From Tenggerimyces flavus (GTDB lineage Bacteria; Actinomycetota; Actinomycetes; Propionibacteriales; Actinopolymorphaceae), in contig NZ_JAFBCM010000001.1 of NCBI RefSeq assembly GCF_016907715.1, positions 3,782,001-3,846,000 of the forward strand: 64,000 nucleotides of DNA. The letters are read 5' to 3'. The translations under genes were made by a program, and so were the position numbers. Below, piece after piece: positions 7,028 to 11,083 of this stretch (its first letter is position 1; each line of letters opens with the position of its first letter). The notes beneath the pieces are model-generated. The model was not told the DNA's origin, did not search any database, and saw nothing but the letters and a program-made list of their open reading frames with translations.

Positions 7028-8242
7028 CTAGAGGTCGAGGGCTCCGCTGCGGGCATGGACGACCGCGGACACGCCCGAGACGAAGGCGTCGAGCCCGAGG
7101 TCCAGCTTGCGCCCGTCCCGGAGCCGCACCGCCACCGACGAGTTCAGCTCCTCGCGTGCCCCGACGACCGCGAGGTACGGCACCTTCCGCAGCTGAGCGG
7201 AACGGATCCGCGCCCCGAGCGACTCGTCGCGGTCGTCCAGCTCCACCCGCAGCCCCGCGTCGAACAGCGACCGCTCCACCGAAGCCCCGTACGGCGAGGA
7301 CCCGACCGGCACCACCACGACCTGCACCGGCGCGAGCCACGGCGGCATGGCGCCGGCGTGCCGCTCGAGCAGGTACGCGGCCATCCGCTCCATCGACGAC
7401 AGCACCGAGCGGTGCACGATCGCGGGCCGCTGCCGCGACCCGTCCGGCGCGATGTACGACAGGTCGAACCGCTCCGGAAGCACCAGGTCGATCTGCACGG
7501 TCGACAGGGAGAACTCCTTGCCGGACGCGTCGTACACCTGGATGTCGATCTTCGGCCCGTAGAACGCCGCCTCGCCCTCCACCCGCTTCGCGTCCATGCC
7601 CGCCAAAGACAAGGCCTCCCACAGCAGAGCCTCGGCCTTCTCCCAGCCCTCGTCGGAGCCCGGGTACGACTTGCCCGGCCCGCGCACCGCGACCTGCACG
7701 TACGCGGGCGAGATCCCGAGGACCGCGTACGCCTCCTGGATCATCCGCAGCGCCAGCGCGGCCTCCTCCGCCGCCTGAGACACAGTGCAGAACACGTGCC
7801 CGTCGTTCAGGGTGATGCCCCGCACCCGGAGCAGCCCGCCCAAAGACCCGGACCGCTCCTTGCGGAACATCTGGTCGTACTCCGCCAGCCGCAGCGGCAG
7901 CTCACGGTGCGACCGTCCGCGAGAGCCGTAGACGAGGATGTGGTGCGGGCACAGCACGGGCCGGAGGACGAGCTCGTCGCCGCCGACCGGGAACGGCGGG
8001 AAGATGTCCTCGCTGAAGTGTTCCCAGTGCCCGGACCGTACGTACAGCTCTCGTTTACCGACGGGAGGGGTGCGGACGTGTTTGTAACCGGCTCGTCGTT
8101 CGGCGTCGATCATGTAGCGCTCCAGCTCGGACACCATCGCGGCGCCGTCGGGCAGCCACAGCGGGAAGCCGGCGCCGGCGAGCTCGTCGGTGGCGTAGAT
8201 GCCGAGGTCGCGGCCCAGCTGGCGGTGATCTTGAACGTCCAT
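7028..8242 (-). CDS. thrS: Threonyl-tRNA synthetase, short form lacking TGS and editing domains
   Basis: 404 residues against ~640-690 for bacterial ThrRS. The protein starts directly at the class II catalytic core (HRQLGRDLGI) and ends with the anticodon-binding domain (~305-395). All three zinc ligands that bind threonine are kept: Cys98 (RPVLCPHH), His149 (NDGHVFC) and His277 (AIVHRS); motif 2 (MFRKERSG) and GEAAFYGPKID are intact. There is no N-terminal TGS or Ser-tRNA editing domain, so misacylated Ser-tRNA must be cleared in trans or by another ThrRS. TAGGAG lies 10 nt before ATG. Expression is probably controlled by the upstream leader. Confidence 0.9.
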   Translation of the reverse strand: MDVQDHRQLGRDLGIYATDELAGAGFPLWLPDGAAMVSELERYMIDAERRAGYKHVRTPPVGKRELYVRSGHWEHFSEDIFPPFPVGGDELVLRPVLCPHHILVYGSRGRSHRELPLRLAEYDQMFRKERSGSLGGLLRVRGITLNDGHVFCTVSQAAEEAALALRMIQEAYAVLGISPAYVQVAVRGPGKSYPGSDEGWEKAEALLWEALSLAGMDAKRVEGEAAFYGPKIDIQVYDASGKEFSLSTVQIDLVLPERFDLSYIAPDGSRQRPAIVHRSVLSSMERMAAYLLERHAGAMPPWLAPVQVVVVPVGSSPYGASVERSLFDAGLRVELDDRDESLGARIRSAQLRKVPYLAVVGAREELNSSVAVRLRDGRKLDLGLDAFVSGVSAVVHARSGALDL

Positions 8243-8283
8243 GTCGAAAGGCTCCTAAGAATGGGGTGGAGCGACCCCAGGGC

Positions 8284-8315
8284 AAAGAAAACGCCCGGGA
8301 GTCACTCCCGGGCGT
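8284..8315 (-). terminator. thrS leader attenuator (intrinsic terminator)
   Basis: Read on the minus strand, ACGCCCGGGA and TCCCGGGCGT pair around a 5-nt loop (10 GC-rich base pairs) and are followed at once by TTTTCTTT. It sits between the threonine leader peptide and thrS, where it would stop transcription unless an alternative fold forms. Confidence 0.8.
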
Positions 8316-8328
8316 CGGTGCGGCAGCG

Positions 8329-8388
8329 TCAGCGAGCCGCTCCGCCGGAAGTGGCGGGCGGCGTCGTCGTCTGCTGCAACGCGTACAT
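8329..8388 (-). CDS. Threonine-rich leader peptide of thrS
   Basis: A 19-codon ORF, MYALQQTTTPPATSGGAAR, with three consecutive Thr codons (ACG ACG ACG) and a fourth Thr after two prolines. It ends 13 nt before the attenuator hairpin. TAGGGT lies 7 nt before the ATG, so the message is probably leaderless and translation begins at the RNA 5' end. By analogy with amino-acid operon leaders, stalling at the Thr codons when charged tRNA-Thr is short should favour antitermination of thrS. The alternative antiterminator fold was not computed. Confidence 0.75.
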   Translation of the reverse strand: MYALQQTTTPPATSGGAAR

Positions 8389-8395
8389 GCCGTAA

Positions 8396-8401
8396 ACCCT
8401 A
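8396..8401 (-). promoter_or_regulatory. -10 box of thrS leader transcript
   Basis: TAGGGT on the minus strand, 7 nt before the leader ATG, matches the actinobacterial TANNNT pattern of leaderless genes. No convincing -35 is seen. Confidence 0.5.
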
Positions 8402-8464
8402 TGCCAGAACACCCCGGCGGCGCGACGTCTTTGAGCAGGGTCGATCACTCCGTGTCGCGAGCGG

Positions 8465-8470
8465 TAGCGT
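8465..8470 (+). promoter_or_regulatory. -10 box of dapA
   Basis: TAGCGT, followed after 7 nt by the ATG at 8478 with no Shine-Dalgarno sequence in between. This fits a leaderless transcript and argues against the in-frame GTG at 8469, which lies inside the -10 box. Confidence 0.5.
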
Positions 8471-8477
8471 GACACCC

Positions 8478-9395
8478 ATGGCTCCCACGACTCAGCACGC
8501 AGCCGGGAGGCCAGCGCCGTTCGGGCGCGTCCTCACGGCGATGGTGACCCCGTTCACGGCGGACGGGGCACTCGACCTCGACGCCGCGCAACGGCTGGCC
8601 ACCCACCTCGTCGACAACGGCAACGACGGACTCGTCGTCTCCGGCACCACGGGAGAGTCGCCCACGACGAGTGACGCCGAGAAGGAGTCCCTGCTCCGTG
8701 CCGTTCTCGAGGCCGTCGGCGACCGGGCGACGATCGTCGCCGGCGCCGGCACCAACGACACCCGGCACGCGGTCGAGATGACCCAGCAGGCCGAGAAGGC
8801 CGGCGCGCACGGGATCCTCACCGTCACCCCGTACTACAACAAGCCGCCGCAGGAGGGCCTGCTCGCGCACTTCCGCGCGGTCGCCGACGCGACCAGCCTG
8901 CCGGTGATGCTGTACGACATCCCCGGCCGTACGGGCACCCCGATCGCGACCGAGACGCTGGTCCAGCTGGCCGATCACGAGCGGATCCAGGGCGTCAAGG
9001 ACGCCAAGGGCGACCTCAGCGGGATCACCGAGGTACTGGCCCGCACCAACCTCGCCTTCTACAGCGGCTCCGACGAGAACAACCTGGCCCTGCTCGCGAT
9101 GGGCGCGACCGGCATCGTCAGCGTGGTCTCGCACGTCGCCAGCCCGGAGTACGCGGCCATGCTGCGCGCGATCGACGAAGGCGACCTGGCGACGGCCCGC
9201 GACCTCGACCGCAAGCTGGTGCCGGCGTTCAAGGCGATCATGACCCGGACGCAGGGAGCGATCATGGCGAAGGCCGCGCTGGAGCTGACCGGCGTGCTGT
9301 CGACCCGGTCCGTACGTCCGCCGCTCGTCCCGGCGAACGAGGAACAGATAGGCCAGCTCAGTGCCGATCTCCAGGAGTCCGGGCTGATTCGATGA
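8478..9395 (+). CDS. dapA: 4-hydroxy-tetrahydrodipicolinate synthase DapA
   Basis: Condenses pyruvate with aspartate semialdehyde in lysine and diaminopimelate synthesis. The class I aldolase barrel shows GTTGESPTT near the N-terminus, the PYYNKPPQEGL loop with its catalytic Tyr, YDIPGRTG, and the Schiff-base Lys in IQGVKDAKGD. 305 residues from the preferred ATG. It overlaps the RNase J gene by ATGA, an arrangement that is very common in actinobacteria. Confidence 0.96.
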   Translation: MAPTTQHAAGRPAPFGRVLTAMVTPFTADGALDLDAAQRLATHLVDNGNDGLVVSGTTGESPTTSDAEKESLLRAVLEAVGDRATIVAGAGTNDTRHAVEMTQQAEKAGAHGILTVTPYYNKPPQEGLLAHFRAVADATSLPVMLYDIPGRTGTPIATETLVQLADHERIQGVKDAKGDLSGITEVLARTNLAFYSGSDENNLALLAMGATGIVSVVSHVASPEYAAMLRAIDEGDLATARDLDRKLVPAFKAIMTRTQGAIMAKAALELTGVLSTRSVRPPLVPANEEQIGQLSADLQESGLIR

Positions 9396-11083
9396 GCCAC
9401 CCGCACCCCGAACTAGGCCCGCCCCCGGAGCTCACCTCCGGCGGCCTCCGCATCATCCCGCTCGGCGGCCTCGGCGAGGTCGGCCGCAACATGACGGTCT
9501 TCGAGCACGAGGGCCGGCTGCTGATCGTCGACTGTGGCGTGCTGTTCCCCGAGGACCACCAGCCCGGCGTCGACCTGATCCTCCCGGACTTCGAGCCGAT
9601 CCGGGACCGCCTCGACCAGATCGAGGCGATCGTGCTCACGCACGGCCACGAGGACCACATCGGCGGCGTTCCGTACCTGCTGCGCGAACGTCCTGACATC
9701 CCGCTCGTCGGCTCGCGCCTCACGCTCGCGCTGATCGAGGCGAAGCTGCGCGAGCACCGGCTGCGAGACGTGCCGCAGGTCGTCGTCCGCGAACGCGAGC
9801 GCGCCTCGTTCGGGCCGTTCGACCTGGAGTTCGTCGCGGTCAACCACTCGATCCCGGACGCGCTCGCGGTCGCGATCCGTACGGCGGCCGGGCTGGTGCT
9901 GCACACCGGCGACTTCAAGATGGACCAGCTGCCGCTGGACGGGCGGCTCACCGACCTGCGCGCGTTCTCGCGGCTCGGCGAGGAGGGCGTGGACCTGTTC
10001 CTCGTCGACTCGACGAACGCCGAGGTGCCCGGCTTCACCACGGCCGAGCGCGACATCGGCCCGGTGCTCGACCGCATCTTCAGCCACGCCGAGCGCCGCA
10101 TCATCGTCGCCTGCTTCGCCTCGCACGTGCACCGCGTGCAGCAAGTGATGGACGCGGCGGTCGCGCACGGCCGGAAGGTCGCGTACATCGGCCGCTCGAT
10201 GGTCCGCAACATGGGCGTGGCGCGCGACCTCGGGTTCCTGAACGTTCCCGGCAACACGCTGGTCGATCCCAAGGACCTGGAAAACCTCCGGCCGGAGGAG
10301 GTCGTGCTGATCTCGACCGGTTCGCAGGGCGAGCCGCTCTCGGCGCTGTCCCGGATCGCCGGGCGCGACCACCCGCTGATCCGGGTGGAGCCGGGCGACA
10401 CGGTCGTGCTGGCGTCGTCGTTGATCCCGGGCAACGAGAACGCGGTCTACCGGGTGATCAACGGCCTGACCCGCTGGGGCGCGAAGGTCGTCCACCGCGG
10501 CAACGCGCTGGTGCACACGTCCGGCCACGCGTCGGCGGGCGAGTTGCTGTACTGCTACAACATCGTCCGGCCGTCGAACGTGATGCCCGTGCACGGCGAG
10601 ATCCGGCACATGCGCGCGAACGCCGAGCTGGCGTACCTCACCGGCGTACCGAAGGACCAGGTCGTGGTCGCCGAGGACGGCGTCGTGGTCGACCTCGTCG
10701 ACGGGGTCGCGCGGATCGTCGGCAAGGTCGAGTGCGGGTACGTCTACGTCGACGGCTCGTCGGTGGGTGACGTGACCGAGGCCGACCTCAAGGACCGGCG
10801 GATCCTCGGTGAGGAGGGCTTCATCTCGGTGATCGTCGTCATGGACTCGGTGACGGGCAAGATCACCGGCGGCCCGCAGATCCAGGCCCGCGGCTTCGTC
10901 GAGGACGACGCGGCGTTCGACGACGTACGCCCGCGGATCGTGGACGCGCTGGCCACGGCGGCGAAGGACGGCGTGGACGACGCCCACCAGCTGCAGCAGG
11001 TGATCCGCCGGACGATGGGCAAGTGGGTCAGCGACTCCCACCGCCGCCGCCCCATGATCATCCCCGTGGTGATCGAGGTCTGA
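9392..11083 (+). CDS. rnj: Ribonuclease J
   Basis: A 563-residue metallo-beta-lactamase/beta-CASP RNase that degrades and matures RNA with endo- and 5'-3' exonuclease activity. The metal motif H84-G-H86-E-D88-H89 (THGHEDHIGG) is intact, as are the HTGDFK strand, the beta-CASP segment (STGSQGEPLSAL) and the HTSGHAS motif; the C-terminal domain is complete. It overlaps dapA by ATGA, so both probably come from the leaderless dapA promoter. Confidence 0.95.
   Translation: MSHPHPELGPPPELTSGGLRIIPLGGLGEVGRNMTVFEHEGRLLIVDCGVLFPEDHQPGVDLILPDFEPIRDRLDQIEAIVLTHGHEDHIGGVPYLLRERPDIPLVGSRLTLALIEAKLREHRLRDVPQVVVRERERASFGPFDLEFVAVNHSIPDALAVAIRTAAGLVLHTGDFKMDQLPLDGRLTDLRAFSRLGEEGVDLFLVDSTNAEVPGFTTAERDIGPVLDRIFSHAERRIIVACFASHVHRVQQVMDAAVAHGRKVAYIGRSMVRNMGVARDLGFLNVPGNTLVDPKDLENLRPEEVVLISTGSQGEPLSALSRIAGRDHPLIRVEPGDTVVLASSLIPGNENAVYRVINGLTRWGAKVVHRGNALVHTSGHASAGELLYCYNIVRPSNVMPVHGEIRHMRANAELAYLTGVPKDQVVVAEDGVVVDLVDGVARIVGKVECGYVYVDGSSVGDVTEADLKDRRILGEEGFISVIVVMDSVTGKITGGPQIQARGFVEDDAAFDDVRPRIVDALATAAKDGVDDAHQLQQVIRRTMGKWVSDSHRRRPMIIPVVIEV

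Follow-up and report, generated by a model that had tools for sequence, protein, structure and literature searches.

A conserved attenuator-type leader precedes an auxiliary threonyl-tRNA synthetase gene in Actinobacteria

What purpose might be served by an ORF of 19 codons, with three consecutive Thr codons, between a promoter and a gene for threonyl-tRNA synthetase (ThrRS)? The question arises from a stretch of 64,000 nucleotides of Tenggerimyces flavus DNA (hereafter the window), part of a genome of 8.52 Mb in one contig. A reading of this DNA made from the sequence alone had described, on the minus strand, TAGGGT, a spacer of 7 nt, a 19-codon ORF with Thr-Thr-Thr and a fourth Thr, a GC hairpin with a run of T residues, and thrS with its Shine-Dalgarno sequence, and had taken the parts and their order to indicate ribosome-mediated attenuation. 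Indeed, the TAGGGT, the spacer and the ORF with all four Thr codons are where that reading had placed them, as are the 10-bp GC stem (8314-8305/8301-8292, loop TGA), the TTTTCTTT that follows it and the AGGAG ahead of thrS (Table 1). The gap between the leader ORF and the hairpin is also present, but it measures 14 nt on recounting rather than 13 nt. The predicted fold of the leader RNA (-61.2 kcal/mol) is far more stable than the mean of its shuffles (-40.4 kcal/mol; z = -6.3), none of 200 shuffles being as good.

Table 1. Positions of the leader, its predicted RNA elements and thrS2 in the window
Feature	Positions	Strand	Remarks
-10 box TAGGGT	8396..8401	-	7 nt ahead of leader ATG (probable leaderless start)
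Leader ORF, thrL-like, MYALQQTTTPPATSGGAAR	8329..8388	-	ATG at 8388, 19 sense codons, TGA ending at 8329
Control codons ACG ACG ACG (Thr)	8362..8370	-	Read from sequence
Fourth Thr codon ACT	8350..8352	-	Inside antiterminator segment 2
Protective hairpin 1:2	8336..8362	-	Predicted without ribosome; segment 2 in loop and first pairs
Segment 2, ACUUCCGG	8345..8352	-	Antiterminator strand predicted by folding
Segment 3 core, CCGGGAGU	8304..8311	-	Predicted antiterminator partner of segment 2
GC-rich terminator hairpin	8290..8316	-	Arms 8316-8305 and 8301-8290, loop 8304-8302
U-tract, TTTTCTTT	8284..8291	-	7 T of 8 after stem
Alternative hairpin 3':5, 5' side	8292..8308	-	Upper arm 3, loop and arm 4
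Alternative hairpin 3':5, 3' side	8268..8284	-	Segment 5, GUCGCUCC, at 8275-8268, just ahead of Shine-Dalgarno
Shine-Dalgarno AGGAG of thrS2	8252..8256	-	thrS ATG at 8242
thrS2	7028..8242	-	Short threonyl-tRNA synthetase, 404 aa; catalytic and anticodon-binding domains only

The gene behind this leader is a second, auxiliary copy of the ThrRS gene, and its product has no editing domain, which the sequence-only reading had not remarked on. The protein scores 431.2 bits against the ThrRS family model TIGR00418 (curated cut-off 383.65) and consists of the class II core and the anticodon-binding domain and nothing else; tRNA_SAD, the N-terminal editing region, is absent from it. The other thrS locus of the same genome is full-length, has the tRNA_SAD editing domain and is 41% identical to the window gene over the part that they share. 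Because this full-length thrS lies elsewhere in the genome, we call the gene behind the leader auxiliary (thrS2). Short ThrRS genes are found in 8/8 genomes of the family, in at least 51 of 196 genomes drawn from the order and in at least 61 of 394 drawn from the class (the window's genome included in each); the order and class counts are lower bounds because of the cut-off of 1e-100, and the class count excludes seven genomes whose only match is a long ThrRS. Matches from the whole genome collection, besides three Actinopolymorpha loci, are ∼40% identical and mostly betaproteobacterial, and these were not used in the leader analysis. One genome (G009) has thrS2 and no match to full-length thrS at 1e-110, at which 29/30 genomes matched, maybe as an effect of assembly or cut-off. 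Adjoining the gene at 7028-8242, a dapA-like and a ribonuclease J-like ORF (8469-11083), named by eye from their translations, lie on the opposite strand and start just upstream of the thrS2 leader, so these transcription units diverge from thrS2.

Two special roles for the enzyme itself found no support. The idea of a zinc-independent spare enzyme is unsupported, since the motifs CPHH and DxHxFC, which we take to be the zinc-ligand motifs of ThrRS, are kept in 106/108 and 105/108 loci. Drug resistance of the ObaO type, in which Ser replaces Gly after the active-site Tyr according to the part of the source available (PMC11252418), is likewise unsupported, as FYGPK is present in 108/108.

The leader is conserved wherever thrS2 could be examined with its upstream DNA. 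We took 110 thrS2 loci, of which 109 have enough such DNA; a locus with 97 nt upstream (L194) was left out of all leader counts, and G462, at a contig edge, was left out as well. In a scripted scan of the 109 loci, 108 had a Thr-Thr-Thr leader and 106 a Thr-Thr-Thr-Pro leader. The locus that the script missed through a wrong gene start (L179) has the leader MKRAQPFLTTTPDSVPAR, which was read separately as the 109th and is absent from the calculations on 108 loci reported below. Relatives thus keep the leader ORF and its Thr run in 109/109 loci, which is the outcome on which the sequence-only reading had made its proposal depend; these loci are related by descent, and counts across them are not independent events. 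By comparison, an upstream ORF with Thr-Thr-Thr arose in 3/540 dinucleotide-shuffled upstream regions, and one with Thr-Thr-Thr-Pro in 0/540. Among 37 housekeeping thrS loci, a leader with Thr-Thr-Thr preceded none of the 31 genes that have upstream DNA.

The usual leader peptide is M(Q/K)RA..TTTPE.VPAR, and the residues preceding the Thr run vary among leaders. The C-terminus VPAR occurs in 77/108 leaders, and all 77, picked by peptide for this count, share the codons GTC CCG GCG CGC TGA. The invariance of these codons, compared to thrS2 genes that use GTC, CCG, GCG and CGC for only 42 to 64% of each residue, points to a constraint on the RNA. Divergent leaders are found at two loci (L201 and L202) and in family f2, for example MAHHQHLTTTPGTLTRRGCGVT; they keep the Thr run, have lost VPAR and should be useful for tracing how the leader evolved. 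When class genomes were searched with the core leader pattern (≤2 mismatches), 24/197 had a match, once per genome, of which 23 are at thrS2 genes already known and one precedes a thrS2 that the class search had missed. Since every match is at a thrS2, the leader appears to be dedicated to this gene, within the limit that the pattern misses 5 of the 28 thrS2 genomes among these 197, the window's own included, whose leaders are too divergent.

Codon choice in the leader is sharply different from that in the gene. The Thr codons of the leader run are ACG in 317/324 cases (ACC 3, ACA 2, ACT 2), but ACG accounts for 8 of the 671 Thr codons inside thrS2 at 108 loci. In the 37 genomes with both genes, ACG makes up 1/308 Thr codons in thrS2 versus 126/589 in the corresponding part of housekeeping thrS, its share being lower in thrS2 in 35 genomes and equal in 2. 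Similarly, none of the 5 Thr codons in the window's thrS2 (404 aa) is ACG, compared to 62 of 119 in five neighbouring ORFs. The thrS2 proteins are also poorer in Thr than their housekeeping partners in 36/37 genomes (2.1% versus 4.2%), to about 0.5% in family f3, with Thr barely lower in five genomes of family f20. This depletion is not peculiar to Thr; the shortfall of Lys, Phe and Asn in thrS2 is greater across the 37 genomes, and part of the Thr depletion may therefore be compositional drift.

A structural reason for ACG was considered and rejected, as the ACG run paired at p < 0.05 with the tail that follows the terminator in 5/108 loci (median z -0.40). The window's genome has tRNA-Thr genes with the anticodons CGT, TGT and GGT. 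In theory, going by the part of the source available, the codons used in attenuators should be ones read by a tRNA that easily becomes uncharged (PMC1183508), and the choice of ACG in the leader, as read from sequence, fits this expectation. A leader with ACG only, ahead of a Thr-poor enzyme that is nearly free of ACG, offers a natural test of the selective-charging theory, as far as that source sets it out (PMC1183508).

The structure of the leader RNA is predicted to depend on the position of the ribosome. We folded with ViennaRNA, representing the ribosome as a simple mask of 12 nt past the A-site codon or 9 nt past the stop. The nascent RNA of the window, to the end of terminator arm 3, is predicted to form the protective hairpin when no ribosome is present. 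When the A site is occupied by Thr codon 1 or 2, segment 2 is predicted to pair with the core of segment 3; for Thr codon 3 a shortened 2:3 pairing is predicted, and a ribosome at the stop codon is predicted to allow neither the protective hairpin nor 2:3. The probability of pairing between terminator arm and leader in the window is 0.87, 0.87 and 0.58 for Thr codons 1 to 3, 0.14 with no ribosome and 0.12 at the stop. Across the loci, this predicted pairing exceeds 0.5 in 108/108 for Thr 1, 108/108 for Thr 2 and 81/108 for Thr 3, in 38/108 with no ribosome and in 5/108 with a ribosome at the stop. An alternative fold competing with the hairpin, the second point on which the earlier proposal hinged, is thus predicted in 108/108 loci with the ribosome on Thr 1 or 2.

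Shuffled leaders often pair with the terminator arm as well (74% above 0.5), and thus only the dependence on the ribosome is unusual. The switch index, which is the ribosome-dependent difference, exceeds 0.4 in 63/108 loci versus 3.4% of shuffles; for 80 loci, no more than one shuffle in 20 matches the real leader. The 2:3 duplex beats shuffles (p < 0.05) in 62/108 loci; in the window its energy is ordinary against shuffles (z -1.3). For covariation we used an alignment (A1) of 58 of the 108 loci, below 80% identity. The antiterminator pairs 2:3 are formed in 95.6% of cases in A1 and are nearly invariant, and although covariation has slight support with global shuffles, 1833/2000 within-family shuffles were as high; therefore, covariation gives the antiterminator no support. 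Similarly, the pairs of protective hairpin 1:2 are 98.3% formed in the relatives, and their near-invariance in A1 makes covariation uninformative for that hairpin. The terminator stem does covary in A1, with 33 double-change cells versus 6.4 in shuffles (0/500 as high).

The window has the parts of an intrinsic terminator, a 10-bp GC stem followed by TTTTCTTT; in relatives the stem is conserved and the U-tract often is not. At least 5 T in the 8 nt after the hairpin are found at 34/108 loci; within the window's family, the count is 2 or 3 at each of the other seven loci. The hairpin of thrL in Streptomyces lividans likewise has no U-rich stretch, according to the available part of that report (PMC8079986). 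These weak U-tracts in relatives imply either that the stems terminate without a U-tract or that the conserved step is translational.

A third pairing bears on this choice. The upper half of terminator arm 3 and the loop (GGCGAGUG in many loci) are complementary to CACUCGCC, mostly 15-30 nt before the thrS2 start. This pairing, 3':5, competes with the terminator. The polymerase reaches the 3' part of the pairing only beyond the terminator, so that 3':5 belongs to read-through transcripts. In the window its two 17-nt sides form 16 pairs with one mismatch, with a duplex energy of z -3.6. The duplex energy beats shuffles (p < 0.05) in 88/108 loci (median z -2.8); the hairpins of L093, L091, L121 and L132 were assigned by hand, and this count was 87 before the last three were corrected. 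The pairing covaries, with 27 double-change cells versus 10.5 (0/500 shuffles), and is formed in 85.9% of cases versus 44-53% when slid. The loop bases on their own, which are unpaired in the terminator, still covary (22 versus 7.5, 0/500), and with letters shuffled within families 0/2000 were as high. Counted by how many pairs show a double change, the helix stays within the range of shuffles, which were as high in 68/500 cases for the whole helix and 60/500 for the loop bases. The covarying 3':5 suggests a further step, perhaps translational; we know of no step like it in classical attenuators.

When 3':5 is forced, the median predicted openness of the Shine-Dalgarno sequence rises from 0.21 to 0.42, and among 106 loci, compared without a shuffled control, it is higher than with the terminator in 85 and lower in 8. 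On these folding predictions, a step at the ribosome site via 3':5 is plausible. The same values are among the points in favour of a purely translational mechanism, in which the leader ribosome would set the hairpins in a full-length mRNA and so hide or expose the Shine-Dalgarno, the U-tract of the window being a local addition. Such a mechanism would suit the weak U-tracts of many loci, those in the window's own family among them, and the covariation of a pairing that adjoins the Shine-Dalgarno. Against it, 7 of the 8 nt that follow the stem in the window are T, and pairing of segment 5 with the Shine-Dalgarno itself reaches p < 0.05 in only 34/107 loci, is not above shuffles on the alignment and has z +0.8 in the window. 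Furthermore, in 104/106 loci 3':5 is less stable than the terminator fold and would form only where the terminator is pre-empted. We also found no tendency for a weak U-tract to be accompanied by stronger segment-5 pairing, in a comparison in which the T counts of family f1 are erroneous. On balance we consider the translational mechanism rather unlikely.

The promoter raises the question of whether the leader senses Thr-tRNA at all. A TAnnnT motif ends 6 or 7 nt ahead of the leader start codon in 95/108 loci, and a leaderless transcription start of S. lividans thrL was mapped by RNA-seq, as described in the available part of that report (PMC8079986); on this spacing and this mapped start, the earlier surmise that the leader ORF is probably leaderless is supported. 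In 20/101 loci a GAAAWY box, as in WblC/WhiB7 promoters, lies 32-34 nt ahead of the -10 box, and thrS2 is listed among the WblC-activated genes of S. coelicolor in the part of the source available (PMC7157823). Both observations would suit a leader that responds to any stalling or slowing of ribosomes, such as antibiotics cause, rather than to Thr-tRNA, with thrS2 as a translation-rescue gene. However, three Thr codons, nearly all ACG, are kept while the preceding residues vary, no strict GAAAWY box was found upstream of the window leader, and promoter input and leader can work jointly; we therefore regard general sensing of stalled ribosomes as improbable.

Two further explanations can be set aside more firmly. 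T-boxes control thrS genes in Firmicutes, and a T-box or another leader that binds tRNA directly might be supposed here, but this stretch is consistent with a leader that is translated. Against the Rfam models nothing in the window scored as high as a gathering cut-off, and no T-box was found in a permissive Rfam scan of 8200-8480, which agrees with the sequence-only reading, in which no T-box elements were seen; this explanation is disfavoured and very improbable. The one match of the permissive scan, to RF02424 (Burkholderia sRNA; 8288-8455, plus strand, 22.1 bits versus a cut-off of 70), probably reflects chance in GC-rich hairpins. Finally, although GC-rich DNA yields many short ORFs and stems, the idea of a chance ORF beside an ordinary terminator of unrelated function is refuted by the conservation of the Thr-Thr-Thr leader (109/109 loci versus 3/540 shuffles) and by the covariation of the terminator stem and 3':5.

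Ribosome-mediated attenuation, as the sequence-only reading had proposed, is supported computationally by the conserved leader and the predicted competing fold, and we consider it likely that an attenuator of this type controls the auxiliary, editing-domain-less ThrRS. From what was computed (the conserved leader, the codon choice, the predicted ribosome-dependent switch and the covariation of the terminator stem and 3':5) we infer termination, stalling and a response to tRNA charging, in the following way. Transcription would begin at or beside the A of the leader ATG, and with such a start the leader would be translated without a Shine-Dalgarno. When charged tRNA-Thr is ample, the ribosome would reach the leader stop and cover segment 2, and the GC terminator would halt transcription ahead of thrS2. 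When Thr-tRNA is scarce, above all the isoacceptor that reads ACG, the ribosome would stall on ACG ACG ACG and block the protective hairpin; the terminator's 5' arm could then pair with segment 2, and transcription would go on. In the transcripts that read through, the upper terminator arm and loop could pair with segment 5, which may keep the ribosome site open. Found before thrS2 in 109/109 loci, the leader may thus be a testable sensor of Thr-tRNA charging in Actinobacteria.

Isoacceptor specificity and an effect on translation, which we likewise infer, lead to a more elaborate and tentative proposal, possible though short of even chances: that the attenuator is a dual-level, isoacceptor-specific switch. 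The three ACG codons would sense the charging of the ACG-reading tRNA-Thr, 3':5 would couple read-through to opening of the ribosome site, and the gene for the spare synthetase, which avoids ACG and is poor in Thr, could still be translated when Thr-tRNA fails.

How does this leader compare with known systems? The thr operon attenuator of Escherichia coli relies on the Thr codons of its leader peptide to govern whether transcription terminates; unlike the leader studied here, it controls a biosynthesis operon and carries Ile codons too. For S. coelicolor, Vecchione and Sello in 2010 reportedly tested by experiment an attenuator ahead of an auxiliary gene for tryptophanyl-tRNA synthetase. As is proposed for the thrS2 leader, ribosome-mediated attenuation there governs a spare synthetase gene of an actinomycete, and the differences lie in the Trp codons, the enzyme and that experimental test. 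The trpS and leuS attenuators of Streptomyces described by Seliverstov in 2005 similarly have a classical leader, antiterminator and terminator before synthetase genes, and the same survey of Actinobacteria, in the part available, gives no conserved RNA structure before threonine operons (PMC1262725). With respect to the enzyme, Anabaena T2 is also a second ThrRS used under stress; according to the available parts of the sources, it is zinc-responsive, being induced by low zinc, and keeps an impaired editing domain (PMC4787780, PMC9437257), whereas thrS2 encodes no editing domain at all.

The thrL-thrS genes of S. lividans TK24 (SLIV_19412/SLIV_19410), with the leader MKRVRPFLETTPGFVPAR, were reported in 2021 (PMC8079986). 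As far as the available text goes, both systems have a leaderless Thr leader with a C-terminal VPAR (as in 77/108 leaders here), followed by a hairpin, before a ThrRS gene; the S. lividans leader differs in having two Thr and no U-rich stretch. Because of the leader peptide, which is the level at which they were compared rather than the DNA, we take the S. lividans pair to be probably orthologous to the leader and thrS2 described here. That report, in the part available, deals with a single locus and does not cover conservation, alternative folds, the contrast in codons or the 3':5 pairing (PMC8079986). The literature that we searched, mostly outside subscription journals and with the pairing itself not among the queries, gave us no earlier account of either the third pairing or the contrast in codons. 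The element before thrS2 is an attenuator-type leader, conserved ahead of the gene for an auxiliary ThrRS, and a leader of this kind had already been reported from one Streptomyces. To that report we add that such a leader stands at every one of the 109 loci examined and appears to be dedicated to thrS2, that leader and gene contrast in their use of ACG, and that a third pairing covaries.
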